The translations under genes and the position numbers were made by a program. Of a stretch of DNA of 64,000 nucleotides, positions 33,281-64,000 are shown one piece after another. Numbering within the stretch: the stretch's first letter is position 1; each line of letters starts with the position of its first letter. A model generated the notes under the pieces. It did not search any database and was not told the DNA's origin. It saw only the letters and a list, made by a program, of their open reading frames with translations. The DNA lies in NCBI RefSeq assembly GCF_964204645.1, contig NC_134033.1, positions 13,394,155 through 13,458,154 on the forward strand. The letters run 5' to 3'. This stretch comes from Tubulanus polymorphus (Eukaryota; Nemertea; Palaeonemertea; Tubulaniformes; Tubulanidae).

Positions 33281-36200
33281 TGGATTGTTGTCGTTTCTTC
33301 CTACGTCGTACGAAAATGATGATAACAGTAAATATGATGGCAATTAGTAGAACACCGAAAACTGCACCGAGAGAAATGGCTATCACGTTCTGTTCTGATG
33401 AGGCAACTACAGATTGAGCGGAACACTCAGATCCTGTATATGATTCGTTACATCTGCAAATTATACAAATAATCGATGATAAATAGACGGAGGTGATTAA
33501 TGAACCCCAGAATGCCCGTAGAAAATTATGCTTAAATTCAATCATAATAAATCACGAATTGCTTTGATCAATGATTATTGAATTCCTGATCAAGCCGATC
33601 AACTTACACACAGTACGGTTCACCAGACGCATGGGACGTATAGCATGCACCGTTTCCGCTACATGTGACTCCGTAACATCTATCTTCGCATTTTATATTC
33701 AATTGTGTTGATCTATTTGCGGGGTTGGCACACTTATATCCGAGCGGACATAGTGCCGGATTTACACGATAACACGGATCAATCGGATTCGATTTGTGTG
33801 ACTCTACGAATCAAGATAATGAATAACGATAACATAATATATTTTGATCGCACATCGTGTAATTAAAAGCTGTCGAAAAAACTTACTGATGAAATTTTTT
33901 TTCGTCCAATTCCTGTCAACCTTATACTGTTCGATACTGAAGTTATTACTAATAAGCCTTGGTAATACTTTATTATCGAGGTATTCAATAAGATTGACAT
34001 TATCGTTATCCTTAAGATACCTCAGCAAAACTGATGTGTTATACTCAACAATGTATTGATAAATAACGCTTCCATTCCTGCCAAGAACAGAAAATTTATG
34101 TGTCAGTAGTAAACCAAGAATAGATCTACAAATGAAATGTATCCACTTACGATAATCCTAACGTAACAATTCTCGATATAGGTGGACTTAAACCAAAGTG
34201 TTCATTTCCTACCTGAAATTTTTAGAAAGGGAGTAAACCGAACAGCGAAAGTGGCTTATTAGATAAATTCATTTTAAAATCACAAAATAAGAAAACTCAC
34301 CGCATGTCGTGCAATGTGCTCCAAAACATCAAACTCTCTTGATGTGTTGTCCGAAAAAGCTGGATTCCAGGAACGATTGATCTTTACAGAGAATGGCCCG
34401 ACGCTAGTTGTTTGTAAGTAACCTGAATTCAAAGAGCCGTAGATGTTTTGAATACTTATTAGTTAAGTAAAATGCAATTCATCATGATTCTACCAGTACT
34501 AACTTTTATCTGATATCGGTACATAGCGAGGACTAGGTGTTTGTGTGTCCACCATAGTGGAGCTGAGAGTCGAAAATGAAGTAGACGAATCGGTTGGTGT
34601 GGAACTCTCGGTGCTCATCGAGGAAACTACCGTAGTTGAGCTGACAATCGAGGATGAAGTAGACGAAGCCGTTGTGAAGGTCGTATCGGTGCTTGCCGAT
34701 GTCGATGTGTCTACCGTGGTGGATGTGTCAGTCGAGAACGAAGTAGACGAATCCGTTGCTGATGTCGTCTTGGTTCTTGCCGATGTCGATGTGTCTTCCG
34801 TTGTGGAGCTGGCAGTCGAGGACGAAGTAGACGAATCCGTTGGTGATGTCGTCACGGGGCTCGCCGATGTCGATGTGTAAACCGTAGTGGAGCTGACAGT
34901 CGAGGTTGAAATAGACGAATCTGTTGCTGATGTCGTCTCGGAACTCGCCGATGTCGATGTGTCTACTACCATGGTGGATGTATCAGTCGAGGACGATGTA
35001 GACAAATCCGTTGTTGAGGCCGTCTCTGTGCTCACCGAGGTTGATGTGTCCACCGTAGTGGAGGTGTCAGTCGAGGACGAAGTAGACGAATCTGTTGGTG
35101 ATGTAGTCTCGATGCGCAACGAGGTAGATATGTCTAACGTTGTTGAGCTGACAGTCGAAGATGAAGTAGACGAATCCGCTGGCGATGTCGTATCGGTGCT
35201 TGCCGAGGTCGATGTGTCTACCGTAGTGGAGGTGTCAGCCGAGGACGAAGTAGACGAATCCGTTGTGAAGGTCGTATCGGTACTCGCCGATGTCGATGTG
35301 TCTCCCGTAGTGGAGGTGTCAGTCGGCGACGAAGTAGACGAATCCGTTGGTGATGTCGTCACAGTGCTCGCCGAGGTCGATGTGTCTACCGCAGTGGAGG
35401 TGTCAGTCGAGGACGAAGTAGACGAATCCGTTGGAGATGTCGTCTCGGTGCTTGCCGATGTCGATGTGTCTACCGTAGTGGAGCTGAAAGTCGAGGATGA
35501 AGTAGACGAATCCGTTGGTGATGTCGTCTCGGTGCTCACCGAGGTCGATGTGTCTACCGTAGTGGAGGTGTCAGTCGATGACGAAGTAGACGAATCCGTT
35601 GGTGTTGTCGTCTCGATGCTCACCGAGGTCGATGTGTCTACCGTAGTGGATATGTCAGTCGAGGACGAAGTAGACGTATCCGTTGCTGATGTCGTCTCGG
35701 TGCTCGACGAGGTCGATGTGTCTACCGTAGTTGAGCTGACAGTCGAGGACGAAGTAGACAAATCCGTTGTTAAGGTCGTATCGGTACTCGCCGAGGTCGA
35801 TGTGTCTACCATAGTGGAGCTGACAGTCGAGGATGAAGTCGACGAATCCGTTGGTGTTGTCGTCTCGGTGCTCACCGATGTCGAAGTGTCTACCGTAGTT
35901 GATGTGTCAGTCGAGGATGAAGTAGACGAATCCATTGGAGATGTCGTCTTAGTGCTCACCGATGTCGATGTGTCTACCGTAGTGGATGCGTCAGTCGCGG
36001 ATGAAGTAGACGAATCCGTTGGTGATGTCGTATCGGTATTCGCCGAGGTCGATGTGTCTACCGTAGTGGATGTGTCAGTCGAGGATGTAGTCGACGAATC
36101 CGTTGGTGATGTCGTATCGGTACTCGCCGAGGTCGATGTGTCTACCGTAGTGGAGGTGTCAGTCGAGTATGAAGTAGTCGAATCCGTTGGTGATGTCGTC

Positions 36201-39200
36201 ACGGTGCTCGCCGACGTCGATGTGTCTACCGTGGTAAAGGTGTCAGTCGAAGACGAAGTAGACGAATCTGTTGTTAAGGTCGTATCGGTTCTCGCCGATG
36301 TCGATCTGGTCATCGAAGTGGGGCTGGTAGTTGAGGACGATGTAAATGAATCCGCTGATGAGGTCGACTCGGTGCTCGACGAGGTAGATCTGTCTATCGC
36401 AGAGGATGTGTCAGGTGAGGACGAAATTGACGAATCCGTTGGTGATGTCGTCTCGGTGCTCGCCGAGGTCGATGTGTCTACCGTAGTGGATGTGTCAGTC
36501 GAGGACGAAGTAGACGAATCCGTTGGTGATGTTGTCTCGGTGCTCGCCGATGTCGATGTATCTTTCGTAGTGGAGCTGACAGTCGAGGACGAAGTTGACA
36601 AATCCGTTGTCAAGGTCGTATCGGTACTCGCCGAGGTCGATGTGTCTACCGTAGTGGAGCTGACAGTCGAGGATGCAGTCGACGAATCCGTTGGTGTTGT
36701 CGTCTCGGTGCTCGCCGAGGTCGATGTGTCTACCGTAGTGGATGTGTCAGTCGAGGATGAAGTAGACAAATCCGTTGGTGATGTCGTATCGATACTCGCC
36801 GAGGTCGATGTGTCTACCGTAGTGGAGCTGACAGTCGAGGATGTAGTCGACGAATCCGTTGGTGATGTCGTCTCGGTGCTCGCCGATGTCGATGTGTCTA
36901 CCGTAGTTGATGTGTCAGTCGAGGATGAAGTAGACGAATCCGTTGGTGATGTCGTGTCGGTGCTCGCCGAGGTCGATGTGTCTACCGTAGTGGAGGTGTC
37001 AGTCGAGGACGAAGTCGACGAATCCGTTGTTAAGGTCGTATCGGTGCTCGCCGAGGTCGATGTGTCTACCGTAGTGGAGGTGTCAGTCGACGACGAAGTA
37101 GAAAAATCCATTGTTAAGGTCGTATCGGTAATCGCCGAGGTCGAAGTATCTGCCGAAGTGGATGTGTCAGTCGAGGACGAAGTAGACGAATCCGTTGCTG
37201 ATGTCGTCTCGGTGCTCGCCGATGTCGATGTGTCTACCGTAGTGGCGGTGTAAGTTGAGGATGAAGTAGACGAATCCGATGGTGATGTCGTCTCAGTGCT
37301 CGCCGATGTCGATGTGTCTACCGAAGAGGCGCTGACAGTCGAGGATGAAGTAGACGAATCCGTTGGTGATGTCGTCACGGTGCTCGCCGAAGTCGAAGTG
37401 TCTACCGTAGTGGAGGTGTCAGTCGAGGACGAAGTAGTCGAATCCGTTGGTGTTGTCGTTTCGGTGCTCACCGAGGTCGATGAGTCTACCGTAGTGGAGG
37501 TTTCAGTCGAGGACGAAGTAGACGATTCCGTTGCTGATGTCGTCTCGATGCTCGACGAGGTAGATGTGTCTACCGTAGTGGAGGTGTCAGTCGTGGACGA
37601 AGTTGACGAATCCGTTGGTGATGTCGTAACAGTGCTCGCCGAGGTCGATGTGTCTACCGTAGTGGAGGTGTCAGTCGAGGACGAAGTAGACGAATCCGTT
37701 GGTGATGTCGTCTCGGTGCTCGCCGATGTCGATGTGTCTACCGTAGTGGAGCTGAAAGTCGAGGATGAAGTAGACGAATCCGTTGGTGATGTCGTATCGG
37801 TGCTCACCGAGGTCGATGTGTCTACCGTAGTGGAGGTGTCAGTCGACGACGAAGTAGAAAAATCCGTTGGTAAGGTCGTATCGGTAATCGCCGAGGTCGA
37901 AGTATCTGCCGTAGTTGTGTCAGTCGAGGACGAAGTAGACGAATCCGTTGCTGATATCGACCCGGTGCTCGACGAGATAGATGTGTCTACCGTAGTTGAG
38001 CTGACAGTCGAGGACGAAGTAGACAAATCCGTTGTTAAGGTCGTATCGGTGCTCATCGAGGTCGATGTCTCTCCCGTAGTGGAGGTGTCAGTCGAGGACG
38101 AGGTAGACGAATCCGTTGTTAAGGTCGTATCGGTGCTCGCCGAGGTCGATGTGTCTACCGTAGTGGAAGTGTCAGTTGGGGACGAAGTAAACGAATCCGT
38201 TGGTGATGTCGTCACAGTGCTCGCCGAGGTTGATGTGTCTACCGTAGTGGAGGTGTCAGTCGAGGATAAAGTAGACGAATCCGTTGGAGATGTCGTCTCG
38301 GTGCTCACCGAGGTCGATGTGTCTACCGTAGTGGAGGTGTCAGTCGATGACGAAGTAGACGAATCCGTTGGTGATGTCGTCTCGGTGCTCGCTGAGGTCG
38401 AGGTGTCTACCGTAGAGGCGCTGACAGTCGAGGATGAAGTAGACGAATCCGTTGGTGATGTCGTCACGGTTCTTGCCGAGGTCGAAGTTTCTACCGTAGA
38501 GGCGCTGACAGTCGAAGATGAAGTAGAAAAATCCGTTGGTGATGTCGTCACGGTGCTCGCCGAGGTCGATGTGTCTACCGTAGTGGAGGTGTCAGTCGAG
38601 GACGAAGTCGACGAATCCGTTGTTAAGGTCGTATCGGTGCTCGCCGAGGTCGATGTGTCTACCGTAGTGGAGGTGTCAGTCGACGACGAAGTAGAAAAAT
38701 CCGTTGTTAAGGTCGTATCGGTAAGCGCCGAGGTCGAAGTGTCTACCGTAGTGGATGTGTCAGTCGAGGACGAAGTAGACGAATCCGTTGCTGATGTCTT
38801 CCTGGTGCTCGACGAGGTAGATGTGTCTACCATAGTCGAGCTGACAGTCGAGGATGAAGTCGACGAATCCGTTGGTGTTGTCGTCTCGGTGCTCACCGAG
38901 GTCGATGTGTCTACCGTAGTTGATGTGTCAGTCGAGGATGAAGTAGACGAATCCGTTGGTGATGTCGTCTCAGTGCTCGCCGATGTCGATGTGTCTACCG
39001 ATGAGGCGCTGACAGTCGAGGATGAAGTAGACGAATCCGTTGGTGATGTCGTCACGGTGCTCGCCGAGGTCGAAGTGTCTACCGTAGTGGAGGTGTCAGT
39101 CGAGGACGAAGTAGACGAATCCGTTGGTGATGTCGTCACGGTGCTCGACGAGGAAGATGTGTCTACCGAAGTTGAGCTGACAGTCGAGGACGTAGTAGAC

Positions 39201-42200
39201 AAATCCGTTGTTAAGGTCGTATCGGTACTCGCCGAGGTCGATGTGTCTACCGTAATGGAGCTGACAGTCGAGGATGAAGTCGACGAATCCGTTGGTGTTG
39301 TCGTCTCGGTGCTCACCGAGGTCGATGTGTCTATCGTAGTGGATGTGTCAGTCGAGGATGAAGTAGACGAATCCGTTGGTGATGTCGTATCGGTACTCGC
39401 CGAGGACGATGTGTCTACCGTAGTGGAGCTGACAGTCGAGGATGAAGTAGACGAATCCGTTTGTGATGTCGTGTCGGTGCTCGCCGAGGTCGATGTGTCT
39501 ACCGTAGTGGAGGTGTCAGTCGAGGATAAAGTAGACGAATCCGTTGGAGATGTCGTCTCGGTGCTTGCCGATGTCGATGTGTCTACCGTAGTGGAGCTGA
39601 CAGTCGAGGATGAAGTCGACGAATCCGTTGGTGTTGTCGTCTCGGTGCTCACCGATGTCGAAGTGTCTACCGTAGTTGATGTGTCAGTCGAGGATGAAGT
39701 AGACGAATCCATTGGAGATGTCGTCTTAGTGCTCACCGATGTCGATGTGTCTACCGTAGTGGATGCGTCAGTCGCGGATGAAGTAGACGAATCCGTTGGT
39801 GATGTCGTATCGGTATTCGCCGAGGTCGATGTGTCTACCGTAGTGGATGTGTCAGTCGAGGATGTAGTCGACGAATCCGTTGGTGATGTCGTATCGGTAC
39901 TCGCCGAGGTCGATGTGTCTACCGTAGTGGAGGTGTCAGTCGAGTATGAAGTAGTCGAATCCGTTGGTGATGTCGTCACGGTGCTCGCCGACGTCGATGT
40001 GTCTACCGTGGTAAAGGTGTCAGTCGAGGACGAAGTAGACGAATCTGTTGTTAAGGTCGTATCGGTTCTCGCCGATGTCGATCTGGTCATCGAAGTGGGG
40101 CTGGTAGTTGAGGACGATGTAAATGAATCCGCTGATGAGGTCGACTCGGTGCTCGACGAGGTAGATCTGTCTATCGCAGAGGATGTGTCAGGTGAGGACG
40201 AAATTGACGAATCCGTTGGTGATGTCGTCTCGGTGCTCGCCGAGGTCGATGTGTCTACCGTAGTGGATGTGTCAGTCGAGGACGAAGTAGACGAATCCGT
40301 TGGTGATGTTGTCTCGGTGCTCGCCGATGTCGATGTATCTTTCGTAGTGGAGCTGACAGTCGAGGACGAAGTTGACAAATCCGTTGTCAAGGTCGTATCG
40401 GTACTCGCCGAGGTCGATGTGTCTACCGTAGTGGAGCTGACAGTCGAGGATGCAGTCGACGAATCCGTTGGTGTTGTCGTCTCGGTGCTCGCCGAGGTCG
40501 ATGTGTCTACCGTAGTGGATGTGTCAGTCGAGGATGAAGTAGACAAATCCGTTGGTGATGTCGTATCGATACTCGCCGAGGTCGATGTGTCTACCGTAGT
40601 GGAGCTGACAGTCGAGGATGTAGTCGACGAATCCGTTGGTGATGTCGTCTCGGTGCTCGCCGATGTCGATGTGTCTACCGTAGTTGATGTGTCAGTCGAG
40701 GATGAAGTAGACGAATCCGTTGGTGATGTCGTGTCGGTGCTCGCCGAGGTCGATGTGTCTACCGTAGTGGAGGTGTCAGTTGAGGACGAAGTCGACGAAT
40801 CCGTTGTTAAGGTCGTATCGGTGCTCGCCGAGGTCGATGTGTCTACCGTAGTGGAGGTGTCAGTCGACGACGAAGTAGAAAAATCCATTGTTAAGGTCGT
40901 ATCGGTAATCGCCGAGGTCGAAGTATCTGCCGAAGTGGATGTGTCAGTCGAGGACGAAGTAGACGAATCCGTTGCTGATGTCGTCTCGGTGCTCGCCGAT
41001 GTCGATGTGTCTACCGTAGTGGCGGTGTAAGTTGAGGATGAAGTAGACGAATCCGATGGTGATGTCGTCTCAGTGCTCGCCGATGTCGATGTGTCTACCG
41101 AAGAGGCGCTGACAGTCGAGGATGAAGTAGACGAATCCGTTGGTGATGTCGTCACGGTGCTCGCCGAAGTCGAAGTGTCTACCGTAGTGGAGGTGTCAGT
41201 CGAGGACGAAGTAGTCGAATCCGTTGGTGTTGTCGTTTCGGTGCTCACCGAGGTCGATGAGTCTACCGTAGTGGAGGTTTCAGTCGAGGACGAAGTAGAC
41301 GATTCCGTTGCTGATGTCGTCTCGATGCTCGACGAGGTAGATGTGTCTACCGTAGTGGAGGTGTCAGTCGTGGACGAAGTTGACGAATCCGTTGGTGATG
41401 TCGTCACAGTGCTCGCCGAGGTCGATGTGTCTACCGTAGTGGAGGTGTCAGTCGAGGACGAAGTAGACGAATCCGTTGGTGATGTCGTCTCGGTGCTCGC
41501 CGATGTCGATGTGTCTACCGTAGTGGAGCTGAAAGTCGAGGATGAAGTAGACGAATCCGTTGGTGATGTCGTATCGGTGCTCACCGAGGTCGATGTGTCT
41601 ACCGTAGTGGAGGTGTCAGTCGACGACGAAGTAGAAAAATCCGTTGGTAAGGTCGTATCGGTAATCGCCGAGGTCGAAGTATCTGCCGTAGTTGTGTCAG
41701 TCGAGGACGAAGTAGACGAATCCGTTGCTGATATCGACCCGGTGCTCGACGAGATAGATGTGTCTACCGTAGTTGAGCTGACAGTCGAGGACGAAGTAGA
41801 CAAATCCGTTGTTAAGGTCGTATCGGTGCTCATCGAGGTCGATGTCTCTCCCGTAGTGGAGGTGTCAGTCGAGGACGAGGTAGACGAATCCGTTGTTAAG
41901 GTCGTATCGGTGCTCGCCGAGGTCGATGTGTCTACCGTAGTGGAAGTGTCAGTTGGGGACGAAGTAAACGAATCCGTTGGTGATGTCGTCACAGTGCTCG
42001 CCGAGGTTGATGTGTCTACCGTAGTGGAGGTGTCAGTCGAGGATAAAGTAGACGAATCCGTTGGAGATGTCGTCTCGGTGCTCACCGAGGTCGATGTGTC
42101 TACCGTAGTGGAGGTGTCAGTCGATGACGAAGTAGACGAATCCGTTGGTGATGTCGTCTCGGTGCTCGCTGAGGTCGAGGTGTCTACCGTAGAGGCGCTG

Positions 42201-45200
42201 ACAGTCGAGGATGAAGTAGACGAATCCGTTGGTGATGTCGTCACGGTTCCTGCCGAGGTCGAAGTTTCTACCGTAGAGGCGCTGACAGTCGAAGATGAAG
42301 TAGAAAAATCCGTTGGTGATGTCGTCACGGTGCTCGCCGAGGTCGATGTGTCTACCGTAGTGGAGGTGTCAGTCGAGGACGAAGTCGACGAATCCGTTGT
42401 TAAGGTCGTATCGGTGCTCGCCGAGGTCGATGTGTCTACCGTAGTGGAGGTGTCAGTCGACGACGAAGTAGAAAAATCCGTTGTTAAGGTCGTATCGGTA
42501 AGCGCCGAGGTCGAAGTGTCTACCGTAGTGGATGTGTCAGTCGAGGACGAAGTAGACGAATCCGTTGCTGATGTCTTCCTGGTGCTCGACGAGGTAGATG
42601 TGTCTACCATAGTCGAGCTGACAGTCGAGGATGAAGTCGACGAATCCGTTGGTGTTGTCGTCTCGGTGCTCACCGAGGTCGATGTGTCTACCGTAGTTGA
42701 TGTGTCAGTCGAGGATGAAGTAGACGAATCCGTTGGTGATGTCGTCTCAGTGCTCGCCGATGTCGATGTGTCTACCGATGAGGCGCTGACAGTCGAGGAT
42801 GAAGTAGACGAATCCGTTGGTGATGTCGTCACGGTGCTCGCCGAGGTCGAAGTGTCTACCGTAGTGGAGGTGTCAGTCGAGGACGAAGTAGACGAATCCG
42901 TTGGTGATGTCGTCACGGTGCTCGACGAGGAAGATGTGTCTACCGAAGTTGAGCTGACAGTCGAGGACGTAGTAGACAAATCCGTTGTTAAGGTCGTATC
43001 GGTACTCGCCGAGGTCGATGTGTCTACCGTAATGGAGCTGACAGTCGAGGATGAAGTCGACGAATCCGTTGGTGTTGTCGTCTCGGTGCTCACCGAGGTC
43101 GATGTGTCTATCGTAGTGGATGTGTCAGTCGAGGATGAAGTAGACGAATCCGTTGGTGATGTCGTATCGGTACTCGCCGAGGACGATGTGTCTACCGTAG
43201 TGGAGCTGACAGTCGAGGATGAAGTAGACGAATCCGTTTGTGATGTCGTGTCGGTGCTCGCCGAGGTCGATGTGTCTACCGTAGTGGAGGTGTCAGTCGA
43301 GGACGAAGTAGACGAATCCGTTGGTGTTGTCGTCTCGGTGCTCACCGAGGTCGATGTGTCTACCGTAGTGGATGTGTCAGTCGAGGATGAAGTAGACGAA
43401 TCCATTGGTGATGTCGTATCGGTACTCGCCGAGGTCGATGTGTCTACCGTAGTGGAGCTGACAGTCGAGGATGTAGTCGACGAATCCGTTGGTGTTGTCG
43501 TATCGGTACTCGCCGAGGTCGATGTGTCTACCGTAGAGGAGCTGACAGTCGAGGATGAAGTCGACGAATCCGTTGGTATTGTCGTCTCGGTGCTCACCGA
43601 AGTCGATGTGTCTACCGTAGTTGATGTGTCTGTCGAGGATGAAGTAGACGAATAGATTGGTGATGTCGTATCGGTGCTCACCGAGGTCGATGTGTCTATC
43701 GTAGTGGAGGTGTCAGTCGAGGACGAGGTAGACGAATCCGTTGTTAAGGTCGTATCGGTGCTCGCCGAGGTCGATGTGTCTACCGTAGTGGAAGTGTCAG
43801 TCGAGGACGAAGTAGACGAATCCGTTGGTGATGTCGTCTCGGTGCTCGCCGATGTTGATGTGTCCACCGTAGTGGAGGTGTCAGTCGAGGACGAAGTAGA
43901 CGAATCCGTTGGTGATGTCGTCTCGGTGCTCGACGAGGTCGATGTGTCTACCGTAGTTGAGCTGACAGTCGAGGACGAAGTAGACAAATCCGTTGTTGAG
44001 GTCGTATCGGTACTCACCGAGGTCGATGTGTCTACCGTAGTGGAGCTGACAGTCGAGGATGAAGTAGACGAATCCGTTGGTGATGTCGTCACGGTGCTCG
44101 ACGAGGTCGATGTGTTTACCGTAGTTGAGCTGACAGTCGAGGATAAAGTAGACAAATCCGTTGTTGAGGTCGTATCGGTACTCACCGAGGTCGATGTGTC
44201 TACCGTAGTGGAGGTGTCAGTCGAGGACGAAGTAGACGAATCCGTTGGTGATGTCGTCTCGGTGCTCGCCGATGTTGATGTGTCCACCGTAGTGGAGGTG
44301 TCAGTCGAGGACGAAGTAGACGAATCCGTTGGTGATGTCGTCTCGGTCCTCGACGAGGTCGATGTGTCTACCGTAGTTGAGCTGACAGTCGAGGACGAAG
44401 TAGACAAATCCGTTGTTGAGGTCGTATCGGTACTCACCGAGGTCGATGTGTCTACCGTAGTGGAGCTGACAGTCGAGGATGAAGTAGACGAATCCGTTGG
44501 TGTTGTCGTATCGGTACTCGCCGAGGTCGATGTGTCTACCGTAGAGGAGCTTACAGTCGAGGATGAAGTCGACGAATCCGTTGGTGTTGTCGTCTCGGTA
44601 CTCGCCGAGGTCGATGTGTCTATCGTAGAGGAGCTTACAGTCGAGGATGAAGCAGACGAATCCGTTGGTGATGTCGTATCGGTACTCGCCGAGGTCGATG
44701 TGTCTACCGTAGTGGAGCTGACAGTCGAGGATAAAGTAGACGAATCCGTTGGTGATGTCGTGTCGGTGCTCGCCGAGGTCGATGTGTTTACCGTAGTGGA
44801 GGTGTCAGTCGAGGACGAAGTAGTCGAATCCGTTGGTGTTGTCGTTTCGGTGCTCACCGAGGTCGATGTGTCTACCGTAGTGGATGTGTCAGTCGAGGAT
44901 GAAGTAGACGAATCCGTTGGTGATGTCGTATCGGTGCTCACCGAGGTCGATGTGTCTACCGTAGTGGAGGTGTCAGTCAAGGATGAAGTAGACGAATCCG
45001 TTGGTGATGTCGTATCGGTACTCGCCGAGGTCGATGTGTCTACCGTAGTGGAGCTGACAGTGGAGGATGAAGTAGACGAATCCGTTGGTGATGTCGTCTC
45101 GATGCTCACCGATGTCGATGTGTCTACCGTAGTTGATGTGTCAGTCGAGGATGAAGTAGACGAATCCGTTGGTGATGTCGTCTCGGTGCTCGCCGATGTG

Positions 45201-51200: not shown

Positions 51201-54200
51201 GAAGTCGACGAATCCGTTGTTAAGGTCGTATCGGTGCTCGCCGAGGTCGATGTGTCTACCGTAGTGGCGGTGTAAGTTGAGGATGAAGTAGACGAATCCG
51301 ATGGTGATGTCGTCTCAGTGCTCGCCGATGTCGATGTGTCTACCGAAGAGGCGCTGACAGTCGAGGATGAAGTAGACGAATCCGTTGGTGATGTCGTCAC
51401 GGTGCTCGCCGAAGTCGAAGTGTCTACCGTAGTGGAGGTGTCAGTCGAGGACGAAGTAGTCGAATCCGTTGGTGTTGTCGTTTCGGTGCTCACCGAGGTC
51501 GATGAGTCTACCGTAGTGGAGGTTTCAGTCGAGGACGAAGTAGACGATTCCGTTGCTGATGTCGTCTCGATGCTCGACGAGGTAGATGTGTCTACCGTAG
51601 TGGAGGTGTCAGTCGTGGACGAAGTTGACGAATCCGTTGGTGATGTCGTCACAGTGCTCGCCGAGGTCGATGTGTCTACCGTAGTGGAGGTGTCAGTCGA
51701 GGACGAAGTAGACGAATCCGTTGGTGATGTCGTCTCGGTGCTCGCCGATGTCGATGTGTCTACCGTAGTGGAGCTGAAAGTCGAGGATGAAGTAGACGAA
51801 TCCGTTGGTGATGTCGTATCGGTGCTCACCGAGGTCGATGTGTCTACCGTAGTGGAGGTGTCAGTCGACGACAAAGTAGAAAAATCCGTTGGTAAGGTCG
51901 TATCGGTAATCGCCGAGGTCGAAGTATCTGCCGTAGTTGTGTCAGTCGAGGACGAAGTAGACGAATCCGTTGCTGATATCGACCCGGTGCTCGACGAGAT
52001 AGATGTGTCTACCGTAGTTGAGCTGACAGTCGAGGACGAAGTAGACAAATCCGTTGTTAAGGTCGTATCGGTGCTCATCGAGGTCGATGTCTCTCCCGTA
52101 GTGGAGGTGTCAGTCGAGGACGAGGTAGACGAATCCGTTGTTAAGGTCGTATCGGTGCTCGCCGAGGTCGATGTGTCTACCGTAGTGGAAGTGTCAGTTG
52201 GGGACGAAGTAAACGAATCCGTTGGTGATGTCGTCACAGTGCTCGCCGAGGTTGATGTGTCTACCGTAGTGGAGGTGTCAGTCGAGGATAAAGTAGACGA
52301 ATCCGTTGGAGATGTCGTCTCGGTGCTCACCGAGGTCGATGTGTCTACCGTAGTGGAGGTGTCAGTCGATGACGAAGTAGACGAATCCGTTGGTGATGTC
52401 GTCTCGGTGCTCGCTGAGGTCGAGGTGTCTACCGTAGAGGCGCTGACAGTCGAGGATGAAGTAGACGAATCCGTTGGTGATGTCGTCACGGTTCTTGCCG
52501 AGGTCGAAGTTTCTACCGTAGAGGCGCTGACAGTCGAAGATGAAGTAGAAAAATCCGTTGGTGATGTCGTCACGGTGCTCGCCGAGGTCGATGTGTCTAC
52601 CGTAGTGGAGGTGTCAGTCGAGGACGAAGTCGACGAATCCGTTGTTAAGGTCGTATCGGTGCTCGCCGAGGTCGATGTGTCTACCGTAGTGGAGGTGTCA
52701 GTCGACGACGAAGTAGAAAAATCCGTTGTTAAGGTCGTATCGGTAAGCGCCGAGGTCGAAGTGTCTACCGTAGTGGATGTGTCAGTCGAGGACGAAGTAG
52801 ACGAATCCGTTGCTGATGTCTTCCTGGTGCTCGACGAGGTAGATGTGTCTACCATAGTCGAGCTGACAGTCGAGGATGAAGTCGACGAATCCGTTGGTGT
52901 TGTCGTCTCGGTGCTCACCGAGGTCGATGTGTCTACCGTAGTTGATGTGTCAGTCGAGGATGAAGTAGACGAATCCGTTGGTGATGTCGTCTCAGTGCTC
53001 GCCGATGTCGATGTGTCTACCGATGAGGCGCTGACAGTCGAGGATGAAGTAGACGAATCCGTTGGTGATGTCGTCACGGTGCTCGCCGAGGTCGAAGTGT
53101 CTACCGTAGTGGAGGTGTCAGTCGAGGACGAAGTAGACGAATCCGTTGGTGATGTCGTCACGGTGCTCGACGAGGAAGATGTGTCTACCGAAGTTGAGCT
53201 GACAGTCGAGGACGTAGTAGACAAATCCGTTGTTAAGGTCGTATCGGTACTCGCCGAGGTCGATGTGTCTACCGTAATGGAGCTGACAGTCGAGGATGAA
53301 GTCGACGAATCCGTTGGTGTTGTCGTCTCGGTGCTCACCGAGGTCGATGTGTCTATCGTAGTGGATGTGTCAGTCGAGGATGAAGTAGACGAATCCGTTG
53401 GTGATGTCGTATCGGTACTCGCCGAGGACGATGTGTCTACCGTAGTGGAGCTGACAGTCGATGATGAAGTAGACGAATCCGTTTGTGATGTCGTGTCGGT
53501 GCTCGCCGAGGTCGATGTGTCTACCGTAGTGGAGGTGTCAGTCGAGGACGAAGTAGACGAATCCGTTGGTGTTGTCGTCTCGGTGCTCACCGAGGTCGAT
53601 GTGTCTACCGTAGTGGATGTGTCAGTCGAGGATGAAGTAGACGAATCCATTGGTGATGTCGTATCGGTACTCGCCGAGGTCGATGTGTCTACCGTAGTGG
53701 AGCTGACAGTCGAGGATGTAGTCGACGAATCCGTTGGTGTTGTCGTATCGGTACTCGCCGAGGTCGATGTGTCTACCGTAGAGGAGCTGACAGTCGAGGA
53801 TGAAGTCGACGAATCCGTTGGTATTGTCGTCTCGGTGCTCACCGAAGTCGATGTGTCTACCGTAGTTGATGTGTCAGTCGAGGATGAAGTAGACGAATAG
53901 ATTGGTGATGTCGTATCGGTGCTCACCGAGGTCGATGTGTCTATCGTAGTGGAGGTGTCAGTCGAGGACGAGGTAGACGAATCCGTTGTTAAGGTCGTAT
54001 CGGTGCTCGCCGAGGTCGATGTGTCTACCGTAGTGGAAGTGTCAGTCGAGGACGAAGTAGACGAATCCGTTGGTGATGTCGTCTCGGTGCTCGCCGATGT
54101 TGATGTGTCCACCGTAGTGGAGGTGTCAGTCGAGGACGAAGTAGACGAATCCGTTGGTGATGTCGTCTCGGTGCTCGACGAGGTCGATGTGTCTACCGTA

Positions 54201-57200
54201 GTTGAGCTGACAGTCGAGGACGAAGTAGACAAATCCGTTGTTGAGGTCGTATCGGTACTCACCGAGGTCGATGTGTCTACCGTAGTGGAGCTGACAGTCG
54301 AGGATGAAGTAGACGAATCCGTTGGTGATGTCGTCACGGTGCTCGACGAGGTCGATGTGTTTACCGTAGTTGAGCTGACAGTCGAGGATAAAGTAGACAA
54401 ATCCGTTGTTGAGGTCGTATCGGTACTCACCGAGGTCGATGTGTCTACCGTAGTGGAGGTGTCAGTCGAGGACGAAGTAGACGAATCCGTTGGTGATGTC
54501 GTCTCGGTGCTCGCCGATGTTGATGTGTCCACCGTAGTGGAGGTGTCAGTCGAGGACGAAGTAGACGAATCCGTTGGTGATGTCGTCTCGGTCCTCGACG
54601 AGGTCGATGTGTCTACCGTAGTTGAGCTGACAGTCGAGGACGAAGTAGACAAATCCGTTGTTGAGGTCGTATCGGTACTCACCGAGGTCGATGTGTCTAC
54701 CGTAGTGGAGCTGACAGTCGAGGATGAAGTAGACGAATCCGTTGGTGATGTCGTATCGGTACTCGCCGAGGTCGATGTGTCTACCGTAGAGGAGCTTACA
54801 GTCGAGGATGAAGTCGACGAATCCGTTGGTGTTGTCGTCTCGGTACTCGCCGAGGTCGATGTGTCTATCGTAGAGGAGCTTACAGTCGAGGATGAAGCAG
54901 ACGAATCCGTTGGTGATGTCGTATCGGTACTCGCCGAGGTCGATGTGTCTACCGTAGTGGAGCTGACAGTCGAGGATAAAGTAGACGAATCCGTTGGTGA
55001 TGTCGTGTCGGTGCTCGCCGAGGTCGATGTGTTTACCGTAGTGGAGGTGTCAGTCGAGGACGAAGTAGTCGAATCCGTTGGTGTTGTCGTTTCGGTGCTC
55101 ACCGAGGTCGATGTGTCTACCGTAGTGGATGTGTCAGTCGAGGATGAAGTAGACGAATCCGTTGGTGATGTCGTATCGGTGCTCACCGAGGTCGATGTGT
55201 CTACCGTAGTGGAGGTGTCAGTCAAGGATGAAGTAGACGAATCCGTTGGTGATGTCGTATCGGTACTCGCCGAGGTCGATGTGTCTACCGTAGTGGAGCT
55301 GACAGTGGAGGATGAAGTAGACGAATCCGTTGGTGATGTCGTCTCGATGCTCACCGATGTCGATGTGTCTACCGTAGTTGATGTGTCAGTCGAGGATGAA
55401 GTAGACGAATCCGTTGGTGATGTCGTCTCGGTGCTCGCCGATGTGGATGTGTCTACCGTAGTTGATATGTCTGTCGAGGATGAAGTAGACGAATCCGTTG
55501 GTGATGTCGTCTCGATGCTCGCCGATGTCGATGTGTCTACCGTAGTTGATGTGTCAGTCGAGGATGAAGTAGACGAATCCGTTGGTGATGTCGTCTCGGT
55601 GCTCACCGATGTGGATGTGTCTACCGTAGTTGATGTGTCAGTCGAGGATGAAGTAGACGAATCCGTTGGTGATGTCGTATCGGTGCTCACCGAGGTCGAT
55701 GTGTCTACCGTAGTTGATGTGTCAGTCGAGGATGAAGTAGACGAATCCGTTGGTGATGTCGTCACGGTGCTCGCCGAGGTCGAAGTGTCTACCGTAGTTG
55801 ATGTGTCAGTTGAGGATGAAGTAGACGAATCCGTTAGTGATGTCGTATCGGTGCTCACCGAGGTCGATGTGTCTATCGTAGTGGAGGTGTCAGTCGAGGA
55901 CGAGGTAGACGAATCCGTTGTTAAGGTCGTATCGGTGCTCGCCGAGGTCGATGTGTCTACCGTAGTTGATGTGTCAGTTGAGGATGAAGTAGACGAATCC
56001 GTTGGTGTTGTCGTCACGGTGCTCGCTGAGGTCGAAGTGTCTACCGTAGTTGTCGTGTCAGTTGAGGATGAAGTAGACGAATCCGTTGGTGATGTCGTCA
56101 CGGTGCTCGCTGAGGTCGAAGTGTCTACCGTAGTTGATGTGTCAGTTGAGGATAAGGTAGACGAATCCGTTGGTGATGTCGTCTCGGTGCTCGCCGATGT
56201 CGATGTGTCTACCGTAGTTGATATGTCTGTCGAGGATGAAGTAGACGAATCCGTTGGTGATGTCGTCTCGATGCTCGCCGATGTCGATGTGTCTACCGTA
56301 GTTGATGTGTCAGTCGAGGATGTAGTAGACGAATCCGTTGGTGACGTCGTCTCGGTGCTCGCCGATGTCGATGTGTCTACCGTAGTTGATGTGTCAGTCG
56401 AGGATGAAGTAGACGAATCCGTTGGCGATGTCGTCTCGGTGCTCGCCGATGTCGATGTGTCTACCGTAGTTGATGTGTCAGTCGAGGACGAAGTAGACGA
56501 ATCCGTTGGTGATGTCGTCTCGGTGCTCGCCGATGTTGATGTGTCCACCGTAGTGGAGGTGTCAGTTGAGGACGAAGTAGACGAATCCGTTGGTGATGTC
56601 GTCTCGGTGCTCACCGATGTGGATATGTCTACCGTAGAGGCGCTGACAGTCGAGGATGAAGTAGACGAATCCGTTGGTGATGTCGTCTCGGTGCCCGCCG
56701 ATGTCGATGTGTCTACCGTAGTTGATATGTCTGTCGAGGATGAAGTAGACGAATCCGTTGGTGATGTCGTATCGGTGCTCACCGAGGTCGATGTGTCTAT
56801 CGTAGTGGAGGTGTCATTCGAGGACGAGGTAGACGAATCCGTTGTTAAGGTCGTATCGGTGCTCGCCGAGGTCGATGTGTCTACCGTAGTTGATGTGTCA
56901 GTTGAGGATGAAGTAGACGAATCCGTTGGTGATGTCGTATCGGTACTCGCCGAGGTCGATGTGTCTACCGTAGTTGATATGTCTGTCGAGGATGAAGTAG
57001 ACGAATCCGTTGGTGATGTCAAATCGGTGCTCACCGTGGTCGATGTGTCTATCGTAGTGGAGGTGTCAGTCGAGGATGAAGTAGACGAATCCGTTGTTAA
57101 GGTCGTATCGGTGCTCGCCGAGGTCGATGTGTCTACCGTAGTTGATGTGTCAGTTGAGGATGAAGTAGACGAATCCGTTGGTGATGTCGTCTCGGTGCTC

Positions 57201-60200
57201 GCCGATGTCGATATGTCTACCGTAGAGGCGCTGACAGTCGAGGATGAAGTAGACGAATCCGTTGGTGATGTCGTCTCGGTGCTCGCCGATGTCGATGTGT
57301 CTACCGTAGTTGATGTGTCAGTTGAGGATGAAGTAGACGAATCCGTTGGTGATGTCGTATCGGTGCTCACCGAGGTCGATGTGTCTATCGTAGTGGAGGT
57401 GTCAGTCGAGGACGAAGTAGACGAATCCGTTGTTGAGGTCGTATCGGTACTCACCGAGGTCGATGTGTCTACCGTAGTGGAGGTGTCAGTCGAGGACGAA
57501 GTAGACGAATCGGTTGGTGATGTCGTCTCGGTGCTCGTCGATGTTGATTTGTCCACCGTAGTGGAGGTGTCAATCGAGGTCGAAGTAGACGAATCCGTTG
57601 GTGATGTCGTCTCGGTGCTCGACGAGGTCGATGTGTCTACCGTAGTTGAGCTGACAGTCGAGGACGAAGTAGACAAATCCGTTGTTGAGGTCGTATCGGT
57701 ACTCACCGAGGTCGATGTGTCTACCGTAGTGGAGGTGTCAGTCGAGGACGAAGTAGACGAATCCGTTGGTGATGTCGTCTCGGTGCTCGCCGATGTTGAT
57801 GTGTCCACCGTAGTGGAGGTGTCAGTCGAGGACGAAGTAGACGAATCCGTTGGTGATGACGTCTCGGTGCTCGACGAGGTCGATGTGTCTACCGTAGTTG
57901 AGCTGACAGTCGAGGACGAAGTAGACAAATCCGTTGTTGAGGTCGTATCGGTGCTCACCGAGGTCGATGTGTCTACCGTAGTTGATGTGTCAGTTGAGGA
58001 TGAAGTAGACGAATCCGTTGGTGATGTCGTCACGGTGCTCGCCGAGGTCGAAGTGTCTACCGTAGTTGATGTGTCAGTTGAGGATGAAGTAGACGAATCC
58101 GTTGGTGATGTCGTCTCGGTGCTCGCCGATGTCGATGTGTCTACCGTAGAGGCGCTGACAGTCGAGGATGAAGTAGACGAATCCGTTGGTGATGTCGTCT
58201 CGGAGCTCGCCGATGTCGATGTGTCTACCGTAGTTGATATGTCTGTCGAGGATGAAGTAGACGAATCCGTTGGTGATGTCGTCTCGATGCTCGCCGATGT
58301 CGATGTGTCTACCGTAGTTGATGTGTCAGTCGAGGATAAAGTAGACGAATCCGTTGGTGATGTCGTCTCGGTGCTCGCCGATGTCGATGTGTCTACCGTA
58401 GTTGATGTGTCAGTCGAGGATGAAGTAGACGAATCCGTTGGTGATGTCGTATCGGTACTCGCCGAGGTCGATGTGTCTACCGTAGTGGAGCTGACAGTGG
58501 AGGATGAAGTAGACGAATCCGTTGGTGATGTCGTCTCGGTGCTCGCCGATGTGGATGTGTCTACCGTAGTTGATATGTCTGTCGAGGATGAAGTAGACGA
58601 ATCCGTTGGTGATGTCGTCTCGATGCTCGCCGATGTCGATGTGTCCACCGTAGTTGATGTGTCAGTCGAGGACGAAGTAGACGAATCCGTTGGTGATGTC
58701 GTCTCGGTGCTCGCCGATGTCGATGTGTCTACCGTAGTTGATGTGTCAGTCGAGGATGAAGTAGACGAATCCGTTGGTGATGTCGTATCGGTGCTCACCG
58801 AGGTCGATGTGTCTACCGTAGTTGATGTGTCAGTCGAGGATGAAGTAGACGAATCCGTTGGTGATGTCGTATCGGTACTCGCCGAGGTCGATGTGTCTAC
58901 CGTAGTGGAGCTGACAGTGGAGGATGAAGTAGACGAATCCGTTGGTGATGTCGTCTCGATGCTCACCGATGTCGATGTGTCTAACGTAGTTGATGTGTCA
59001 GTCGAGGATGATGTAGACGAATCCGTTGGTGATGTCGTCTCGATGCTCGCCGATGTCGATGTGTCTACCGTAGTTGATGTGTCAGTCGAGGATGAAGTAG
59101 ACGAATACGTTGGTGATGTCGTCTCGGTGCTCGCCGATGTCGATGTGTCTACCGTAGTTGATGTGTCAGTCGAGAATATAGTAGACGAATCCGTTGGTGA
59201 TGTCGTATCTGTGCTCACCGAGGTCGATGTGTCTATTGTAGTGGAGGTATCAGTCGAGGACGAGGTAGACGAATTCGTTGTTAAGGTCGTATCGGTGCTC
59301 GCCGAAGTCGATGTGTCTACCGTAGTTGATGTGTCAGTTGAGGATGAAGTAGACGAATCCGTTGGTGATGTCGTCACGGTGCTCGCCGAGGTCGAAGTGT
59401 CTACCGTAGTTGATGTGTCAGTTGAGGATGAAGTAGACGAATCCGTTGGTGATGTCGTCTCGGTGCTCGCCGATGTCGATGTGTCTACCGTAGAGGCGCT
59501 GACAGTCGAGGATGAAGTAGACGAATCCGTTGGTGATGTCGTCTCGGTGCTCGCCGATGTCGATGTGTCTACCGTAGTTGATATGTCCGTCGAGGATGAA
59601 GTAGACGAATCCGTTGGTGATGTCGTCTCGGTGCTCGCCGATGTCGATGTGTCTACCGTAGTTGATGTGTCAGTCGAGGATGAAGTAGACGAATCCGTTG
59701 GTGATGTCGTCTCGGTGCTCGCCGATGTTGATGTGTCTACCGTAGTTGATGTGTCAGTCGAGGATGAAGTAGACGAATCCGTTGGTGATGTCGTCACGGT
59801 GCTCGCCGATGTCGATGTATCTACCGTAGAGGCGCTGACAGTCGAGGATGAAGTAGACGAATCCGTTGGTGATGACGTCACGGTGCTCGCCGAGGTCGAT
59901 GTGTCTACCGTAGTGGAGGTGTCAGTCGAGGACGAAGTCGACGAATCCGTTGTAAAGGTCGTATCGGTGCTCACCGATGTCGATGTATCTATCGTAGTGG
60001 AGGTGTCAGTCGAGGATGAAGTAGACGAATCCGTTGGTGATGTCGTATCGGTGCTCACCGAGGTCGATGTGTCTACCGTAGTTAATGTGTCAGTCGAGGA
60101 TGAAGTAGACGAATCCGTTGGTGATGTCGTATCGGTACTCGCCGAGGTCGATGTGTCTACCGTAGTGGAGCTGACAGATGAGGATGAAGTAGACGAATCC

Positions 60201-63200
60201 GTTGGTGATGTCGTCTCGATGCTCACCGATGTCGATGTGTCTACCGTAGTTGATGTGTCAGTCGAGGATGAAGTAGACGAATCCGTTGGTGATGTCGTCA
60301 CGGTGCTCGCCGATGTCGATGTGTCTACCGTAGTTGATGTGTCAGTCGAGGATGAAGTAGACGAATCCGTCGGTGTTGTCGTCACGGTGCTCGCCAAGGT
60401 CGAAGTGTCTACCGTAGTTGATGTGTCAGTTGAGGATGAAGTAGACGAATCCGTTGGTGATGTCGTATCGGTGCTCACCGAGGTCGATGTGTCTACCGTA
60501 GTTGATGTGTCAGTCGAGGACGAGGTAGACGAATCCGTTGTTAAGGTCGTATCGGTGCTCGCCGAGGTCGATGTGTCTACCGTAGTTGATGTGTCAGTTG
60601 AGGATGAAGTAGACGAATCCGATGGTGATGTCATCACGGTTCTCGCCGAGGTCGAAGTGTCTACCGTAGTTGATGTGTCAGTTGAGGATGAAGTAGACGA
60701 ATCCGTTGGTGATGTCGTCTCGGTGCTCGCCGATGTCGATATGTCTACCGAAGAGGCGCTGACAGTCGAGGATGAAGTAGACGAATCCGTTGGTGATGTC
60801 GTATCGGTGCTCACCGAGGTCGATGTGTCTATCGTAGTGGAGGTGTCAGTCGAGGACGAGGTAGACGAAACCGTTGTTAAGGTCGTATCGGTGCTCGCCG
60901 AGGTCGATGTGTCTACCGTAGTGGAGGTGTCAGTCGAGGACGAAGTAGACGAATCGGTTGGTGATGTCGTCTCGGTGCTCGTCGATGTTGATTTGTCCAC
61001 CGTAGTGGAGGTGTCAGTCGAGGACGAAGTAGACGAATCCGTTGGTGATGTCGTCTCGGTGCTCGACGAGGTCGATGTGTCTACCGTAGTTGAGCTGACA
61101 GTCGAGGACGAAGTAGACAAATCCGTTGTTGAGGTCGTATCGGTACTCACCGATGTCGATGTGTCTACCGTAGTGGAGGTGTCAGTCGAGGACAAATTAG
61201 ACGAATCCGTTGGTGATGTCGTCTCGGTGCTCGCCGATGTTGATGTGTCCACCGTAGTGGAGGTGTCAGTCGAGGACGAAGTAGACGAATCCGTTGGTGA
61301 TGTCGTCTCGGTGCTCGACGAGGTCGATGTGTCTACCGTAGTTGAGCTGACAGTCGAGGACGAAGTAGACAAATCCGTTGTTGAGGTCGTATCGGTACTC
61401 ACCGAGGTCGATGTGTCTTCCGTAGTGGAGCTGACAGTCGAGGATAAAGTAGACGAATCCGTTGGTGATGTCGTCACGGTGCTCGCCGAGGTCGATGTGT
61501 CTACCGTAGTTGATGTGTCAGTCGAGGACGAAGTGGACGAATCCGTTGTAAAGGTCGTATCGGTGCTCACCGAGGTCGATGTGTCTACCGTAGTGGAGGT
61601 GTCAGTCGAGGATGAAGTAGACGAATCCGTTGGTGATGCCGTCACGGTACTCGCCGAGGTCGATGTGTCTACCGAAGAGGAGCTTACAGTCGAGGATGAA
61701 GTCGACGAATCCGTTGGTGTTGTCGTCTCGGTACTCGCCGAGATCGATGTGTCTACCGTAGAGGAGCTTACAGTCGAGGATGAAGTAGACGAATCCGTTG
61801 GTGATATCGTATCGGTACTCGCCGAGGTCGATGTGTCTACCGTAGTGGAGCTGACAGTCGAGGATAAAGTAGACGAATCCGTTGGTGATGTCGTGTCGGT
61901 GCTCGCCGAGGTCGATGTGTCTACCGTAGTTGATGTGTCAGTCGAGGATGAAGTAGACGAATCCGTTGGTGATGTCGTATCTGTGCTCACCGAGGTCGAT
62001 GTGTCTACCGTAGTTGATGTGTCAGTCGAGGATGAAGTAGACGAATCCGTTGGTGATGTCGTATCGGTACTCGCCGAGGTCGATGTGTCTACCGTAGTGG
62101 AGCTGACAGTGGAGGATGAAGTAGACGAATCCGTTGGTGATGTCGTCTCGGTGCTGGCCGATGTGGATGTGTCTACCGTAGTTGATATGTCTGTCGAGGA
62201 TGAAGTAGACGAATCCGTTGGTGATGTCGTCTCGATGCTCGCCGATGTCGATGTGTCTACCGTAGTTGATGTTTCAGTCGAGGATGAAGTAGACGAATCC
62301 GTTGGTGATGTCGTCTCGGTGCTCGCCGATGTCGATGTGTCTACCGTAGTTGATGTGTCAGTCGAGGATGAAGTAGACGAATCCGTTGGTGATGTCGTAT
62401 CGGTGCTCACCGAGGTCGATGTGTCTACCGTAGTTGATGTGTCAGTCGAGGATGAAGTAGATGAATCCGTTGGTGATGTCGTCTCAATGCTCGCCGATGT
62501 CGATGTGTCTACCGTAGTTGATGTGTCAGTCGAGGATGAAGTAGACGAATCCGTTGGTGATGTCGTCTCGATGCTCGCCGATGTCGATGTGTCTACCGTA
62601 GTTGATGTGTCAGTCGAGGATGAAGTAGACGAATACGTTGGTGATGTCGTCTCGGTGCTCGCCGATGTCGATGTGTCTACCGTAGTTGATATGTCAGTCG
62701 AGAATATAGTAGACGAATCCGTTGGTGATGTCGTATCGGTGCTCACCGAGGTCGATGTGTCTATTGTAGTGGAGTTGTCAGTCGAGGACGAGGTAGACGA
62801 ATCCGTTGTTAAGGTCGTATCGGTGCTCACCGAGGTCGATGTGTCTACCGTAGTGGATGTGTCAGTCGAGGATGAAGTAGACGAATCCGTTGGTGATGTC
62901 GTATCTGTGCTCACCGAGGTCGATGTGTCTACCGTAGTTGATGTGTCAGTCGAGGATGAAGTAGACGAATCCGTTGGTGATGTCGTATCGGTACTCGCCG
63001 AGGTCGATGTGTCTACCGTAGTGGAGCTGACAGTGGAGGATGAAGTTGACGAATCGGTTGGTGATGTCGTCTCGGTGCTGGCCGATGTGGATGTGTCTAC
63101 CGTAGTTGATATGTCTGTCGAGGATGAAGTAGACGAATCCGTTGGTGATGTCGTATCGGTACTCGCCGAGGTCGATGTGTCTACCGTAGTGGAGCTGACA

Positions 63201-64000
63201 GTCGAGGATAAAGTAGACGAATCCGTTGGTGATGTCGTATCGGTACTCACCGAGGTCGATGTGTCTACCGTAGTTGAGCTGACAGTCGAGGATGAAGTAG
63301 ACGAATCCGTTGGTGATGTCGTCACGGTGCTCGCCGAGGTCGATGTGTCTACCGTAGTGGAGGTGTCAGTCGAGGACGAAGTCGACGAATCCGTTGTAAA
63401 GGTCGTATCGGTGCTCACCGAGGTCGATGTGTCTATCGTAGTGGAGGTGTCAGTCGAGGATGAAGTCGACGAATCCGTTGGTGATGTCGTATCGGTACTC
63501 GCCGAGGTCGATGTGTCTACCGTAGTGGAGCTGACAGTCGAGGATAAAGTAGACGAATCCGTTGGTGATGTCGTGTCGGTGCTCGCCGAGGTCGATGTGT
63601 CTACCGTAGTGGAGGTGTCAGTCGAGGACGAAGTAGTCGAATCCGTTGGTGTTGTCGTTTCGGTGCTCACCGAGGTCGATGTGTCTACCGTAGTGGATGT
63701 GTCAGTCGAGGATGAAGTAGACGAATCCGTTGGTGATGTCGTATCGGTGCTCACCGAGGTCGATGTGTCTACCGTAGTTGATGTGTCAGTCGAGGATGAA
63801 GTAGACGAATCCGTTGGTGATGTCGTATCGGTACTCGCCGAGGTCGATGTGTCTACCGTAGTGGAGCTGACAGTGGAGGATGAAGTAGACGAATCCGTTG
63901 GTGATGTCGTCTCGATGCTCACCGATGTCGATGTGTCTACCGTAGTTGATGTGTCAGTCGAGGATGAAGTAGACGAATCCGTTGGTGATGTCGTCTCGGT
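32525..64000 (-). CDS. Giant membrane-tethered mucin (5' end beyond window)
   Basis: Nine exons are visible: a repeat exon 64000-34504, still open at the window edge, then 34422-34301, 34212-34151, 34077-33887, 33803-33608, 33453-33280, 33200-33086, 32915-32694 and 32614-32525. All junction phases agree. The in-window protein is over 9,800 residues of Ser/Thr-rich repeats plus a 390-residue C-terminal part: SEA domain, one EGF-like domain, a transmembrane helix and a cytoplasmic tail. This order is that of vertebrate membrane mucins such as MUC3, MUC12 and MUC17. Such proteins form heavily O-glycosylated surface coats on epithelia, which is the likely role here. The signal peptide and N terminus are off-window. 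Arthropod and molluscan mucins often arise independently, so no orthology to a named mucin is claimed. Confidence 0.9.
33281..33803 (-). other. Mucin EGF-like domain and transmembrane helix
   Basis: Two exons (33803-33608 and 33453-33281 and on). After a Cys-containing linker comes CYGVTCSGNGACYTSHASG, then EPYCVCNESYTGSEC. The six cysteines are spaced C-x4-C-x5-C-x10-C-x-C-x8-C, a regular EGF pattern. A membrane helix follows (VIAISLGAVFGVLLIAIIF, then TVIIIFV), ending in a basic cluster. The EGF domain is split by a phase-2 intron just before its fifth cysteine. Confidence 0.88.
33887..34422 (-). other. Mucin SEA domain
   Basis: Three exons encode a SEA module: GPFSVKINRSWNPAFSDNTS (first strand and helix), ISRIVTLGL, NGSVIYQYIVEYN, and a C-terminal part with VLPRLISNNFSIEQYKV. 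SEA domains of membrane mucins cut themselves at a G|SVVV turn. The aligned NGSVIY keeps the Gly-Ser pair, so self-cleavage into two non-covalently held chains is likely but not certain. At least six N-x-S/T sites lie in the domain (NRS, NTS, NGS, NTS, NFS, NWT). Confidence 0.85.
35815..43303 (-). repeat. Tandem segmental duplication, 3,777-bp period
   Basis: The sequence from about 35815 to 39525 recurs almost base for base at +3,777 (about 39592 to 43303). Landmarks: a diverged unit with TCGATCTGGT at 36301 and 40078, and an antisense TAA at 37251 and 41028. 3,777 equals 45 units minus 3 bp, the missing codon being part of the block. Single-base differences are rare (for example GTTCTTGCC at 38469 against GTTCCTGCC at 42246). 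Confidence 0.9.
38887..59300 (-). repeat. Tandem segmental duplication, about 10.2-kb period
   Basis: The sequence from about 38,890 to 49,300 recurs from about 49,300 onward. The offset is 10,413 bp on the left (TCGATCTGGT at 40078 and 50491), changing to 10,245 bp after a two-unit (168-bp) loss just before 51275. Further whole-unit indels shift it to about 9,909 bp near 59171. The second copy includes a third copy of the 3.7-kb block. Confidence 0.85.

Follow-up and report, generated by a model that had tools for sequence, protein, structure and literature searches.

A 64,000-nt stretch of contig NC_134033.1 of the nemertean Tubulanus polymorphus (the window; C9:13394155-13458154 in a 267.8-Mb, 77-contig assembly) carries on its minus strand the 3' part of a giant exon built of short Ser/Thr-rich repeats. 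Judged from the sequence, this is very probably the first coding exon of a membrane-tethered mucin gene, in which the repeat array precedes a tail with SEA-like, EGF-like and transmembrane segments, the whole being under purifying selection. We refer to the gene as gene A and to this exon as exon A. We also suggest, tentatively and with more doubt than confidence, that exon A, which spans 69.8 kb and includes both the signal peptide and the full array, is the longest single protein-coding exon described in an animal, and that it would specify a tethered mucin of about 23,650 residues reaching micrometres from the cell, its frame held by selection during block duplication.

The original prediction stated that a single repeat frame runs without a stop from a splice donor at position 34503 to the window edge, and that the exon is incomplete there. 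Both statements were borne out. A scan of the window found minus-strand frame 0 to be stop-free over 34502-64000 (29,499 nt), with 351 repeat units in this part. The donor GTTAGT begins at 34503 on the minus strand, and readthrough would meet an in-frame TAG at 34499-34501. C9 was read past the window over the next 100 kb and then a further 40 kb, with coordinates continued from the window numbering. In the assembly, the frame of exon A remains open up to continued coordinate 104287, and the first ATG, three codons downstream of a stop, lies at 104278 (C9:13498432), not near the window edge. The coding length of exon A is thus 69,775 nt, or 23,258 codons, with no stops. A tandem paralogue, gene B, lies upstream on the same strand (C9:13506338-13544960). 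Its first coding exon has a related start and is also stop-free (38,623 nt, 12,874 codons).

Exon A begins with MGTYVQTNKNLRVTLIVIWIAYCLNETTRA, which resembles a signal peptide. A polar start is followed by the hydrophobic core VTLIVIWIAYCL, with a mean hydropathy of 2.57, and the equivalent core in gene B is VTLLVIWIACCL, both cores being assigned from hydropathy only, with no dedicated predictor. This start and the entire array share one exon in gene A. Tandem Repeats Finder reported a period of 84 nt in the window, with 350.8 copies and 88% matches, and 345 of the 350 spacings between units in this part are exactly 28 codons. The consensus unit translates as TETTSPTDSSTSSSTDTSTTVDTSTSAS. 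The full array comprises 826 units of approximately 28 codons, with 271 distinct amino-acid sequences and 422 distinct nucleotide sequences among them, and about 10 distinct kinds of unit-length change were recognized by eye. Ser and Thr account for 73.3% of the exon A codons and Pro for about 3%, giving a long tandem-repeat domain of the Pro/Thr/Ser type found in tethered mucins. The array decays at its low-coordinate end, where the last two units are 29% and 30% off the consensus. A Pfam scan of 1,999 array residues gave no match, and a search of viral contigs for the exact repeat pattern gave 0 matches.

The openness of this frame had been taken as a sign of continued selection for coding. 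This argument overstates the case, as an 84-nt repeat (3 x 28) preserves its frame by default, which makes openness by itself weak evidence, and as the units are not independent, many being copies of others. The claim itself was supported: that natural selection holds the huge frame open is indicated by missing stops, Ser/Thr conservation, third-position bias, the lack of a net frameshift and the lower divergence of exons than of introns between the two paralogues. The tests of stop codons, site shuffling, Ser/Thr content and codon position left out units with fewer than 17 of 28 consensus matches (7 of the 826 units of A and 30 of the 456 units of B). Among codons one change away from the common codons, A contains 190 of 343 non-stop codons and none of 18 stops, where 9.83 were expected (P(0) = 2.6e-7); in B these figures were 147 of 409 and 0 of 20, with 7.18 expected (P(0) = 1.1e-4), and these P values are approximate because the units share ancestry and their variants are not independent. 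When sites were shuffled among units, in-frame stops averaged 7.64 for A and 15.84 for B, with none observed in either. Variants that lose Ser or Thr were depleted when stratified by mutation type (odds ratio 0.26 in A and 0.22 in B). The third codon position was the most variable in both arrays, with values of 0.037, 0.062 and 0.120 at positions 1, 2 and 3 of A.

Spacings between units in the translated frame are whole codons by construction, and gaps were therefore checked at the nucleotide level. Alignment to the consensus unit placed gaps in 12 of 825 pieces of A, all of them multiples of 3, and in 43 of 455 pieces of B, 41 of which contained multiples of 3 only. A base-level test of stop variants against the consensus was discarded. 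It gave 0 of 9 in the window, but on the full arrays 2 of 9 for A and 5 of 8 for B, even though neither exon contains an in-frame stop. Because the base-level test disregards the rest of the codon, its P values were dropped and the reachable-codon test took its place.

These results bear on the proposal that the array is a non-coding 84-nt satellite, open just by virtue of a period divisible by 3. The consensus unit is also stop-free in one antisense frame, and that frame is nearly open, with 9 stops over the whole of exon A compared with 552-1892 in the four other non-coding frames; open runs on the plus strand reach 33 kb. However, a satellite would not account for the depletion of stops in the sense frame, the conserved Ser/Thr content, the third-position variation and the absence of a net frameshift, nor for a signal-peptide-like start in both paralogues and a spliced tail with conserved exons, and we find this explanation hardly credible. 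On the plus strand of the array (window 34881-64000) the long open runs have an acidic and Val-rich translation. Open antisense runs are probably a by-product of the 84-nt period together with constraint on the sense strand.

The array appears to have grown in blocks. Neighbouring units in the window are 87.9% alike, compared with 87.2% for random pairs, and exon A contains recurring blocks of 4,464, 3,758, 2,539, 2,345, 2,003 and 1,671 bp, lying 3.8-14.8 kb apart at 0.2-0.7% divergence. Near-identical blocks of at least 1.5 kb make up 35% of exon A and 10% of exon B, and no out-of-frame blocks of at least 700 bp were found in the window part. This pattern would fit recent in-register duplication of tens of units, with assembly error as the alternative. 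That the array is real and coding, but of a length that is wrong or inflated in the assembly through duplicated or collapsed blocks, would be suggested by the blocks of 4,464, 3,758 and 2,003 bp that repeat at 0.2% divergence and by the share of the exon that such blocks occupy. Against this, exact repeats in exon A extend to at most 1,969 bp, which is shorter than usual long reads; the assembly resolves 268 Mb into 77 contigs, with no N bases in the 204 kb read here; and about half of the units are distinct by nucleotide. Moreover, the 24-nt core of the repeat occurs on no other contig, as all 497 exact matches in the genome fall at the C9 locus (367 in A and 102 in B) and at two loci on a second contig, C4 (23 near 0.6 Mb and 5 near 1.51 Mb). 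We consider a wrong length rather unlikely.

We also considered whether the array is coding but broken by introns or exitrons made of repeat units. Exon A contains 238 donor-like GGTRAG sites, which match units carrying Val at unit position 27, and under a looser criterion the window part of the array has 16 acceptor-like sites in which at least 11 of 14 bases are pyrimidines; rare exitron splicing is possible because such sites exist. However, no intron-like break was found across the 69.8 kb: TTTTCAG and long pyrimidine acceptors are absent, TTTCAG occurs 4 times, and G+C content (GC) is at least 0.45 in every 84-nt window of the array. The introns of the tail are of a different kind, being 73-170 nt long and AT-rich (GC 0.29-0.39), in contrast to the even GC of the array. 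An array interrupted by introns is very unlikely, and a single uninterrupted exon remains our preferred interpretation.

Downstream of exon 1, GT...AG splicing joins eight further exons in phase, ending at a stop at 32525-32527; the features are listed in Table 1. The least certain junction is that of exons 7 and 8, where the acceptor is weak. In order, the spliced tail contains SYLQ...NGSVIY..., a linker rich in Cys, an EGF-like module with six Cys, a hydrophobic segment of 26 residues and a cytoplasmic part of about 150 residues that includes RRRKKR. With 390 residues after exon 1, the predicted protein A has about 23,648 residues, and the computed backbone mass of the exon-1 part is approximately 2.27 MDa. 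Tail exons also follow the array of gene B, so that the two genes share a layout and a nearly identical tail and differ in the size of the giant exon; the predicted gene B protein has about 13,264 residues (tail by alignment).

We compared the tails of A and B over the eight exons and the last 103 nt of exon 1. The exons differ at 22 of 1272 positions (1.7%) with 0 gap columns, and the introns at 64 of 786 (8.1%) with 32 gap columns, while GT...AG is kept at all eight introns. The contrast between exons and introns varies along the tail: introns 1, 2 and 4 do not exceed the exons in substitutions (with 9 gap columns in intron 2), and exon 9 differs at 11 of 87 positions. A protein ending at the TAG just inside intron 1 would be a secreted mucin without the SEA, EGF and transmembrane tail, either always or as an intron-retaining isoform. 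This stop is present in both paralogues, and intron 1 shows substitutions at 0 of 81 positions. However, the eight downstream exons are in phase, have kept their splice sites and are jointly less diverged than the introns, and this conservation fits their use within the same gene. A secreted product is accordingly an unlikely outcome, and we describe the tail below as part of the membrane-tethered form.

SEA had been named as the expected family ahead of any domain scan. It was the top Pfam match of the spliced domain piece, at 15.5-15.8 bits (E 0.019 and 0.016; cut-off 26.4). The sequence NGSVIY lies where we take the SEA self-cleavage motif, G-S-V-V-V, to be. NGSVIY is preceded by a phase-2 intron and, before that, by a phase-0 intron (by eye), and in the mucin-like gene at 1.51 Mb on C4 two introns of the same phases surround ...QGSVIV... 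(by eye). In a gene on another contig, C8, a SEA hit above the cut-off (41.2 bits, profile positions 2-59) has a phase-2 intron at its end (phase by eye), and PGSIV is in frame past the next acceptor (by eye). Together, the weak Pfam score and the gene structure suggest that the tail domain is likely, though not proven, to be homologous to SEA. The spliced tail also contains the EGF-like six-Cys pattern C-x4-C-x5-C-x10-C-x-C-x8-C, and a search of the PDB with the ectodomain yielded no more than weak matches, most of them to EGF modules (best E 0.035). An EGF-like module is present in many, though not all, tethered mucins. A single transmembrane helix (19-residue hydropathy 3.28) is followed by RRRKKR and the cytoplasmic tail, and is identical in the paralogue. 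Gel-forming mucins possess VWD, CysD and cystine-knot domains. None of these was listed by Pfam for the spliced 390-aa tail, and exon A has one Cys codon; the predicted product thus does not appear to be a gel-forming mucin.

Besides the shared ancestry of the units, several observations count against a selected, membrane-tethered mucin. The SEA match is weak when taken alone, because it is below the Pfam cut-off, was not reported in a scan of the whole 390-aa tail, and was equalled by a hit to an unrelated family (E 0.019) from one of nine shuffled sequences. In the C4 open reading frame (ORF), the SEA-like part was read by eye, and Pfam found no family there at E 0.01. EGF-type Pfam models were also below their cut-offs, with a best E of 0.0011. 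Two edge units of B (0 and 453) have gaps not divisible by 3, which cancel within the unit. Nonsynonymous and synonymous changes are about equally common within the recently duplicated blocks, and the codon differences between the two tails comprise 13 nonsynonymous and 7 synonymous changes, giving no strong signal in the ratio of nonsynonymous to synonymous rates (dN/dS). The exact copy number is open to assembly error because near-identical blocks reach 4.5 kb.

If gene A encodes a tethered mucin, the chain would enter the endoplasmic reticulum, and approximately 17,000 Ser and Thr residues may become densely O-glycosylated. The SEA-like domain might then cleave itself between NG and SVIY and stay non-covalently joined, and the product would project from an epithelial surface as a very long hydrated bristle. 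At about 0.25 nm per residue, its length would be several micrometres. The array could have grown by unequal exchange, duplicating blocks of tens of units in the 84-nt register, with purifying selection purging frameshifts, stops and changes that lose Ser or Thr.

Tethered mucins are already known, and it is the size of this one that is extreme. In human MUC12, MUC3A and MUC17 a giant exon of Ser/Thr tandem repeats precedes the membrane-proximal modules and the transmembrane segment, and gene A has the same arrangement. In the MUC3/MUC12/MUC17 subgroup an EGF module is found both before and after the SEA domain. Gene A does not group with these, having one SEA-like domain, then one EGF-like module, and no Cys-rich module between the array and the SEA-like exons. 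Unlike in the MUC12 layout, the signal-peptide-like start and the whole array here share one exon. MUC16 is a very long tethered mucin with multiple tandem SEA domains; gene A resembles it in length and in carrying SEA-like sequence, but the single SEA-like domain in its tail sets it apart from the MUC16 subgroup. The original prediction had compared the exon with that of MUC16 (about 22 kb), and exon A is indeed longer.

MUC12 is the better yardstick. A preprint (PMC13345508) predicts human MUC12 alleles of up to 23,080 aa and describes the MUC12 repeat exon as the largest coding exon of some human individuals; it also gives MUC4 repeat alleles of up to 27,843 bp and ranks MUC16 third in repeat size among the mucins compared. 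If the assembly is right, exon A alone (69,775 nt) exceeds the whole coding length of the longest MUC12 allele in that preprint (3 x 23,080 = 69,240 nt). According to its description (PMC6553539), spider AgSp1 spans 42,270 bp in two similar-sized exons, with Ser/Thr stretches that are likely glycosylated. Gene A shares with it a repetitive coding sequence of extreme length with Ser/Thr stretches, but AgSp1 is a secreted spidroin with two similar exons and different repeats and termini. Exon A is longer than these MUC12, MUC4 and AgSp1 yardsticks, the comparison covering such published cases only. The titles and abstract openings among the matches listed in a literature search on exon-size records mentioned no exon this large, but a longer coding exon may be in print. 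The phrases 'SEA domain' and 'transmembrane mucin' are absent from the available part of a C. elegans review (PMC11304992).

If the assembly is right, this gene offers a test of how a cell defines a 70-kb exon, preserves a repetitive frame of that length, and manages the translation and glycosylation of a chain exceeding 2 MDa. The paralogous exons of 69.8 and 38.6 kb, together with the repeat at two C4 loci, form a natural experiment on the growth and spread of repeat exons under protein-level selection.

Table 1. Features of gene A in the window (window coordinates).
Feature	Position	Strand	Remarks
3' 29,497 nt of giant first coding exon, 28-codon Ser/Thr repeats	34504..64000	-	remainder extends past window to C9:13498432
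Intron 1 (GTTAGT...ATTCAG)	34423..34503	-	site kept in paralogue
Exon 2, first part of SEA-like domain	34301..34422	-	
Exon 3, middle of SEA-like domain	34151..34212	-	phase-0 intron before, phase-2 intron after (by eye)
Exon 4, second half of SEA-like domain	33887..34077	-	
NGSVIY, where SEA self-cleavage motif would sit	34059..34076	-	
Exon 5, Cys-rich linker and start of EGF-like module	33608..33803	-	
Exon 6, end of EGF-like module, transmembrane segment, basic RRRKKR	33280..33453	-	
Predicted transmembrane segment VIAISLGAVFGVLLIAIIFTVIIIFV	33309..33386	-	hydropathy 3.28 over 19 residues
Exon 7, cytoplasmic tail	33086..33200	-	3' end less certain
Exon 8, cytoplasmic tail	32694..32915	-	5' end less certain, weak acceptor TTTTTCAAAG
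Exon 9, C-terminus ...DEADTNTI and stop TAG	32525..32614	-	

The repeat DNA is common to different contigs (C9 and C4). At C4:595779-600542 and C4:1508952-1518051, short arrays of the same 28-residue repeat lie in other mucin-like ORFs. Unlike gene A, these genes have short arrays. SEA-like sequence (by eye) adjoins the array at 1.51 Mb, and VWD-bearing ORFs lie within about 10 kb at both loci. The Ser/Thr-rich gene region on C8 (C8:8874784-8882001) contains two SEA hits above the Pfam cut-off; a TAA falls within the stretch matched by the second. Weak matches to exon 4 on C3 and C5 (E 0.1-0.3), two of three of which were inspected, were not accepted as relatives. The chance match near 15.33 Mb on C3 lies among transposase-like ORFs that we take to resemble piggyBac.

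The rest of the window contains other genes and repeats. An Rfam scan of positions 1-34600 at the gathering threshold gave no match, and the observed/expected CpG ratio in the flank is 1.16. Pfam identified exons of an Atg4-type (Peptidase C54) gene at 21656-22604 on the minus strand and of a RagA/Gtr1 GTPase gene at 28331-29265 on the plus strand. A 610-codon ORF of higher GC at 11952-13781 (minus strand) presumably resembles the N-terminal part of TSC22-family proteins, although Pfam gave no TSC22-type match, and an ORF at 18365-18649 (plus strand) has a sub-threshold DUF1330 match (E 0.045). Minisatellites are located at 2460-3078 (16-nt unit, 38.7 copies) and 23507-24993 (44-nt unit, 33.8 copies, 96% matches). 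A nematode origin, which the short introns had suggested, was dropped for lack of support: searches for SL1 RNA and for cuticle collagens gave no match, although neither search gave one in the control genomes either and these negatives do not establish absence. Elsewhere in the genome, the Cys-loop receptor ligand-binding domain gave 145 matches on C5, C4, C1, C7, C11 and other contigs, many of them clustered and with exons counted separately, which points to a large Cys-loop receptor family in this animal.

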